From: Bacteroidetes bacterium GWF2_35_48
Lineage (GTDB): Bacteria; Bacteroidota; Bacteroidia; Bacteroidales; GWF2-35-48
NCBI GenBank assembly: GCA_001769125.1
Contig: MEOG01000039.1
Coordinates: forward strand, 1 to 64,000
Length of the DNA: 64,000 nt
Reading direction: 5' to 3'
Shown: positions 28,285 through 56,048 of the stretch, piece by piece
Layout: each line of letters begins with the position of its first letter
Position numbering within the stretch: position 1 is the first letter of the stretch
The notes under the pieces: model-generated
Told to the model about the DNA's origin: nothing
Database searches by the model: none
The model's input: only the letters and a program-made list of their open reading frames with translations
Made by a program: the position numbers and the translations under genes

Positions 28285-28359
28285 ATATAGTGTCAGCAAG
28301 AAGACATAAATTTCACAAATTACCACGAAAGATTAAATAGCTCATTTTATGTAACCTGC

Positions 28360-29192: not shown

Positions 29193-29314
29193 GTGTGAGT
29201 TAGTGGCTGTTTCCGGCTTTTTTTGACGACAATTTATAATTTGTCAAGTAATAATTCATCAGTCACATCTGTTGTTTTATCATGTCGAAATTTTCTTGAG
29301 ACCTTAGTCTAACT

Positions 29315-29521
29315 AGTGCCAGCAAGAAAACTCATGTTTTTTGCTCACAATGTATGTGCCTGATAAGAAAACATCAAGTTCAAGCCTGCCTGTCCGGTAG
29401 GCAGGGCTTGCGAAGACCTGAAAATTAGGAGCCTGCCTTGTCGGCAGACAGGTGTACTAATGTACATGACTACTTTTCAGGTCAAGCGTAACGATGAAAT
29501 TGATGTTTTCTTGCAGGCACT
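29315..29521. mobile_element. Small inverted-repeat element, copy A (207 bp), with nested palindromes
   Basis: Ends are agtgccagcaagaaaac at the left and gttttcttgcaggcact at the right, which are inverted repeats with one mismatch in 17. The element is bracketed by a direct repeat aact (29311-29314 and 29522-29525), as expected for a 4-bp target duplication. Inner complementary pairs are gaaaacatcaa/ttgatgttttc (29367-29377 and 29500-29510) and gacctgaaaa/ttttcaggtc (29415-29424 and 29474-29483). Compared with copy B at 55899-56043 it has two added small palindromes (29384-29404 and about 29431-29453) and a longer left side. It has no coding capacity, so it would be a MITE-like, non-autonomous element or a transposing structured RNA gene. 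Confidence 0.8.
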
Positions 29522-29568
29522 AACTATATATTCAGGAAGGGAAGACATATCTATACAAACAATAAAAT

Positions 29569-55884: not shown

Positions 55885-55898
55885 GTTTTACTGTAGTT

Positions 55899-56043
55899 AG
55901 TGTCCGCAAGAAAACTATGTGTTTGATAAAGAAAACGTCAAATACAAGGCTTTCGAAGTCATGAAAACCAAGGAGTTTACTTTTGTAAATGACTGTTTTC
56001 ATGACGAGAGTAACGCAGTAGTTGGCGTTTTCTTGCAAACACT
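55899..56043. mobile_element. Small inverted-repeat element, copy B (145 bp)
   Basis: Ends are agtgtccgcaagaaaac and gttttcttgcaaacact, inverted repeats with two mismatches. The direct repeat agtt brackets it (55895-55898 and 56044-56047), a 4-bp target duplication. Inner pairs are gaaaacgtcaa/ttggcgttttc (55931-55941 and 56022-56032) and gtcatgaaaac/gttttcatgac (55958-55968 and 55995-56005). The loop segments ggcttNcgaag and (g/c)agtaacg are shared with copy A. It is non-coding and lies between two minus-strand genes, three bases after the stop of the DUF3788 gene. Confidence 0.85.
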
Positions 56044-56048
56044 AGTTA

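Follow-up and report, generated by a model that had tools for sequence, protein, structure and literature searches.

ERIC (IRU) elements are palindromic repeats of 127 bp that end in TATACCC..GGGTATA, and they have been used in genotyping for decades. REP/REPIN repeats, which carry GTAG or CGTC repeats and are associated with RAYT tyrosine transposases, also belong to the short palindromic repeats found near gene ends. In Yersinia, ERIC destabilizes upstream transcripts in an orientation-dependent manner (De Gregorio 2005, as reviewed in PMC2229807). According to that 2007 review, with the exception of RUP, matching insertion sequence (IS) ends have been neither sought nor found for such bacterial repeats (PMC2229807). 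The elements described here are a new and widespread Bacteroidota variant of ERIC-like elements.

The window analyzed, a 64,000-nucleotide stretch of Bacteroidetes bacterium GWF2_35_48 (contig MEOG01000039.1), contains two copies, A and B, of a non-autonomous multicopy transposable element (MITE). On the window + strand, the element consists, from 5′ to 3′, of a 5′ end, an internal pseudo-end, a core, and a 3′ end. Element B (147 bp; positions 55898 to 56044, +, which is the structured-strand orientation) is delimited by its terminal inverted repeat (TIR) pair and the duplicated TAGTTA. The end-motif scan places its 5′ terminal repeat, TAGTGTCCGCAAGAAAAC, at 55898 to 55915 (+) and its 3′ terminal repeat, TAGTGTTTGCAAGAAAAC in the minus-strand reading, at 56027 to 56044 (−). 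The pseudo-end, GTGTTTGATAAAGAAAACGTCAA (55919 to 55941, +), pairs with the 3′ end via a conserved bulge. The ERIC-like core hairpin (55938 to 56024, +) is matched by the core-only covariance model R1 with an E value of 1.3e-23, and the apical hairpin CAAGGAGTTTACTTTTGTAAATGACTG (55969 to 55995, +) bears a tandem G.A motif that is common to ERIC. Of the hexamers flanking B, the left TAGTTA (55894 to 55899), with AGTT within it, fits the family target TANNTA, and the right TAGTTA (56043 to 56048) has a two-base overlap with the element end and adjoins the stop codon of a minus-strand DUF3788 ORF. Element A (209 bp; 29314 to 29522, +) is a long form with an additional 5′ hairpin and two nested GC-rich palindromes; its core lies at 29397 to 29502 (+; R1 E value, 3.1e-9) between TAACTA hexamers at 29310 to 29315 and 29521 to 29526. 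The long forms have an extra short arm after the 5′ end, which forms a 41-bp hairpin, and in the predicted DNA fold of A, the outer 5′ end makes a small hairpin of its own. The pseudo-end pairs with the 3′ end yet retains a bulge where the true end has GC. A solo end motif, TAGTGTCAGCAAGAAGAC (28288 to 28305, +), is probably a remnant, and the window holds five end motifs (≤3 mismatches), compared with 0.06 expected in shuffled sequences.

A first-pass annotation had read A and B as insertions with shared ends, each with its own direct repeat, and all of this is present in the sequence; the shared ends are of the type TAGTGYCNGCAAGAAAAC and its reverse complement. The 4-bp repeats that it named (AACT and AGTT) exist but lie inside the duplicated hexamers, such that the duplication may be anywhere from 2 to 6 bp. 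The ends are inverted repeats, as it stated, but the 3′ end pairs mainly with the internal end copy and not with the 5′ end. The GC-rich palindromes of A (CCTGCC..GGCAGG type) occupy 29380 to 29405 and 29432 to 29452, and other copies (L057, L058, and L078) harbor these as well as different small palindromes, nested in the corresponding loops. Several copies (L018, L019, L020, L062, and L074) carry another repeat, of the GGGCAAACACCCTGTGGGTGTTTGAGCCAGCTAGTGCGGATG type, within the 3′ internal loop, where its insertion replaces conserved core bases.

The source genome (5.98 Mb in 142 contigs, 98% complete) contains 174 end motifs (≤3 mismatches), compared with 4 for a reversed-motif control, and 131 matches to R1, whereas BLAST with B alone recovers about 45 places. 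Because the TIR scan details only part of the 174 places, the element counts rest on the core model. The elements are short and multicopy, possess terminal inverted repeats, and lack a transposase gene, as required of a MITE; copies of 40 to 58 bp with little beyond the two ends also occur. Within the order, 42 of 393 genomes contain the end motif; these belong to scattered families, and the motif was not found in the single other sampled genome of the genus. A scan of named genomes gave at least 91 stretches, nearly all of those listed being labeled Bacteroidota, and the cultured bacteria among the matches listed include Labilibacter marinus Y11, Marinilabilia salmonicolor, and Natronoflexus pectinivorans DSM 24179, as well as Anaerophaga and Brumimicrobium. 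Over the phylum, R1 matches were found in 24 of 345 sampled genomes, mostly in one family outside this class (f136), and GC-rich core forms in another class of the phylum reach E values of 2e-10. Two candidate interpretations were rejected. The end motif occurs in 13 stretches of viral contigs without any paired element, and most of these resemble chance matches in phage coding DNA. The GGAG motif is followed by a small ORF (ATGACT..) that is not preserved, its start being lost in one locus (L161).

The same core is found between different ends. A second end, TAGTGTTTGTCCATAATGT, occurs at about 61 sites in the source genome, most of those read hold the same core, and in these elements the pseudo-end is altered to match. 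In family f136, the core is flanked by ends of the GGGCACCTCTA type. The presence of the core between several different ends indicates that it is a module. One f136 core copy is adjoined by a cobalamin riboswitch (L339, 172 to 449).

The flanks of the elements support transposition, as the first-pass annotation had inferred from its two copies, and the further copies with duplications in related genomes, whose absence would have refuted it, exist. Of 100 elements with an end on each side, 81 have identical bases at the two variable positions of the flanking repeat, compared with 15 (at most 26) when the flanks are reshuffled, and in a larger set, matching flanking duplications were found in 188 of 255 elements, nearly every site being TANNTA. 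The true duplication length may be 2, 4, or 6 bp, an ambiguity that arises because the outer T and A of the site are almost fixed. A 6-bp duplication and a strict TANNTA target could not be told apart, since flank bases that deviate were the same on the two sides in only about 3 of 20 instances.

The compensatory changes that the first-pass annotation had noted between the stems of A and B also hold in a large alignment, and its proposal of a structured RNA or folded end under selection agrees with strong covariation across diverse genomes; a lack of such covariation, which it had named as a refutation, is not seen. In 54 nonredundant hairpins, with no structure assumed, the best covarying column pairs are nested Watson-Crick pairs with scores of up to 75, compared with at most 22 in column shuffles. 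RNAalifold predicted 38 pairs from 46 copies, 32 of them with double changes. In the core alone, 93.8% of cells are paired, and 138 cells show double changes, compared with 35.8 in shuffled alignments and at most 41 in slid controls. Relatedness is not controlled for by the shuffles, and these numbers are therefore not probabilities. Because the palindrome matches itself, an iterative profile drawn from both strands was set aside, and strands were then assigned by best score. In 50 of 53 cores, the window + strand is predicted to form a more stable fold than the complementary strand (p = 7e-10), with mean energies of −24.1 and −18.4 kcal/mol, respectively. Among non-Watson-Crick cells, G.T is more frequent than A.C (142 versus 26), also without the four heaviest pairs (52 versus 26; p = 0.004); counted by pair, the latter difference (16 versus 9) falls short of significance, and some excess of G.T is also present in slid control pairs. 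Taken alone, the G.T/A.C test is thus of moderate weight. The G.T excess together with the better folding identifies the + strand as the structured one. Two conserved tandem G.A motifs exist solely on this strand, and the unpaired bases (the G.A motifs, GGCTT, and TAACG) are conserved while the stems vary.

Two DNA-level explanations rival an RNA role of this fold. Template switching can create and maintain stems and can mimic compensatory change (PMC8794818), and the halves of the element, a long imperfect palindrome, could be copied from each other, such that the hairpin would be kept by DNA processes only and the fold would be functionless. It is not obvious why such correction should prefer one strand, yet G.T cells outnumber A.C cells and the fold of the + strand is the better one, and the unpaired motifs are retained beside variable stems; the strand asymmetry and the G.A motifs argue against a purely DNA-level origin of the covariation, and we regard this explanation as improbable. 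The fold could instead act as single-stranded DNA during transposition or replication, read by a transposase or a host factor. The strand asymmetry would be expected in that case, too, the 3′ end lies within the hairpin, and the bulge kept in the pseudo-end distinguishes it from the true end. DDE transposases normally act on double-stranded ends, however, core-less minimal copies of 40 bp have flanking duplications as well, and the core is common to elements with different ends, which makes a single-stranded DNA role unlikely but somewhat harder to dismiss than template switching. We prefer the reading that the + strand fold is selected; the strand asymmetry is observed, and action at the RNA level is inferred, without transcript evidence.

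The resemblance of the core to ERIC is clear, and common descent with ERIC is inferred. When R1, which was built without ERIC, was run over a 4.8-Mb Escherichia coli chromosome, four matches were obtained at E ≤ 1 (0.003, 0.13, 0.45, and 0.53), and all are ERIC, carrying 35 to 44 of the 44 bases of what we take to be the ERIC consensus. Matches to this presumed consensus also exist in 283 plasmid records, and all 86 R1 positions are covered when a Salmonella ERIC is aligned. Convergence between hairpins might account for such a likeness, given the moderate E values, the different ends, the different phylum, and the shortness of the conserved stretches. Against it, only ERIC copies reach E ≤ 1 among all hairpins of the chromosome, the loop, the tandem G.A motif, CAAGGC, and AACGAAG all fall within the match, with order and strand preserved, and the GC-rich forms are known from another class of the phylum. 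Convergence therefore seems to us the less plausible origin, while retaining slightly more credit than the single-stranded DNA reading, and common descent is preferred.

The first-pass annotation had placed a helper transposase elsewhere, and ISNCY transposases whose ISs have almost identical ends and target type are indeed present in relatives. In one related genome (G125), a transposase adjoins a solo end, and a protein search gave matches in 11 of 393 genomes. Intact IS copies are about 1.85 kb long, with the ends TAGTGTCTGAAAGAAAAC, TAGTGTCTCTAAGAAAAC, and TAGTGCCACTAAGAAAAC. Two copies have identical flanks of the ANNT type (ATAT/ATAT and ATTT/ATTT), and matching flanks are absent in two of the four copies with both flanks readable. 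Two full-length transposases exceed the cutoff of the NCBIfam ISNCY family NF033593 (383.6 and 376.5 versus 325 bits), and both match a Pfam DDE domain. Two or three internal bases often distinguish the IS ends from those of the MITEs; in genome G067, the end beside an ISNCY fragment is identical in every letter to a MITE 5′ end. No ISNCY gene was found in the source assembly by protein search. Two source contigs stop shortly behind a perfect end in the same sequence (L058, 7567 to 7653, and L066, 2010 to 2104), which could reflect an IS collapsed in or lost from the assembly, a possibility that is unproven; when the contig-end sequence was used to search the source genome for an IS body, only the two contig ends matched. 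Mobilization of the elements by ISNCY is likely, as inferred without binding or excision data, and the probable helper offers a clue to how ERIC, whose mobility is unexplained, may move. The G125 transposase (L119, 1652 to 2948) is split into two overlapping frames at a run of A, possibly through frameshifting or mutation, and related intact copies read through. In genome G359, two contigs (L171, 2713 to 2831, and L173, 2881 to 2999) end in the same 119-bp sequence behind TAGTGCTGGCAAGAAAAC, which is probably another IS end.

Nearly all copies are intergenic, with only 2 of 106 located inside an ORF. In 27 of the 106, a neighboring ORF of at least 100 codons enters the 3′ end in frame with the TAG of that end, compared with one and two elements for the other two frames; the equivalent arrangement at the 5′ end was seen in six. 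The original stop codon lies on the far side of the element in all 22 cases with an intact duplication, indicating that the insertion split the stop codon and rebuilt it. Stop-codon elements thus make up 33 of 106, compared with about 4.8% expected from the intergenic and stop TANNTA sites (p = 2e-18), and they are biased 27:6 toward having the 3′ end face the gene (p = 0.0003). Both p values are approximate, because genes were called simply as ORFs and common descent may link some of the copies. The bias places the better-folding strand antisense to the adjacent gene, and an insertion in the opposite orientation may, on one reading, be harmful to the upstream mRNA. Element B fits the pattern, its 3′ end abutting the stop of the DUF3788 ORF. 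A literature search on the insertion of such elements into stop codons found nothing. On insertion exactly in a stop codon, as in many copies, the TAG of the end regenerates the stop and leaves the protein unchanged, which shows how elements can multiply to more than 100 copies with little harm.

The interpretation given in the first-pass annotation is supported as a whole; the relationship to ERIC, the modularity of the ends, the asymmetry between strands, and the insertion into stop codons escaped it. The explanation that best joins these observations, which we hold with fairly good confidence, is a MITE mobilized by ISNCY with an ERIC-like, selected RNA hairpin core. In this model, an ISNCY-family DDE transposase acting in trans would recognize the terminal repeats and insert the element into TANNTA sites, and the internal pseudo-end would pair with the 3′ end and close the hairpin around the core. 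The core would most likely act as RNA in read-through transcripts, affecting their processing or stability as reported for Yersinia ERIC; its transcription and RNA effect are inferred, without transcript evidence. A core conserved on one strand, with covarying stems and exchanged ends, argues for a selected RNA domain in some MITEs, which would then be more than decayed ISs. A broader proposal, which we put forward only tentatively, regards the ERIC-like core as a mobile RNA domain in its own right that has spread across phyla, repeatedly acquiring different IS ends and traveling with many transposases. ERIC, sX9-type repeats, and this Bacteroidota family would then form a single superfamily with several branches, under selection for an RNA-level effect by which insertions at gene ends become tolerable.

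Among known systems, no Rfam family was matched above its gathering score. In the Bacteroidales copies, only chance matches to Rfam were found, with no sX9 match among the elements tested. For a Comamonas repeat and for the majority of the f136 copies scanned, the best Rfam family is sX9 (RF02228), but these matches lie on the opposite strand, and all are below the gathering score. Weak sX9 matches are also given by a hairpin that has GGAGCGTACNNNNGTACGTGAGGA as its apical motif and is enclosed by CTATCCCA..TGGGATAG repeats; it occurs in E. coli beside qseG (L326, 601 to 657) and in Aeromonas (L328, 601 to 657). The betaproteobacterial repeat BRE may be related, in the absence of a sequence comparison (PMC3110155). 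The folded ends of IS200/IS605-type elements, which have neither terminal inverted repeats nor duplications, are ruled out, as the elements have both. Like REP/REPIN, the elements are short palindromic repeats near gene ends, but they have true terminal repeats, target duplications, and ends shared with a DDE-type IS, and the target duplications and the shared ends point away from REP/REPIN. With the MITEs of ISNCY-family ISs (NF033593), they share terminal repeats and ANNT/TANNTA flanks, but, as far as tested, their interior did not arise by deletion from an IS, and no core match was found inside the ISNCY IS copies. They agree with ERIC in being palindromic, intergenic MITEs of many copies and in the core, where CAGGAG-YTTAC-N4-GTAAR-TGACTG, CAAGGC, and AACG(A/C)AG lie on the same strand; the ERIC core sequence and fold are thus met with modest E values (0.003 to 0.5), and the ERIC terminal sequence and 127-bp consensus are not. 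The Bacteroidota element instead ends in TAGTG..GCAAGAAAAC, is mostly 145 to 168 bp long, targets TANNTA, resides in Bacteroidota, and has a likely helper IS identified in relatives. Because its ends, length, and target differ, it is classified as ERIC-like and not as ERIC, and an ERIC-like element with identifiable IS ends makes the question of the ERIC helper testable.
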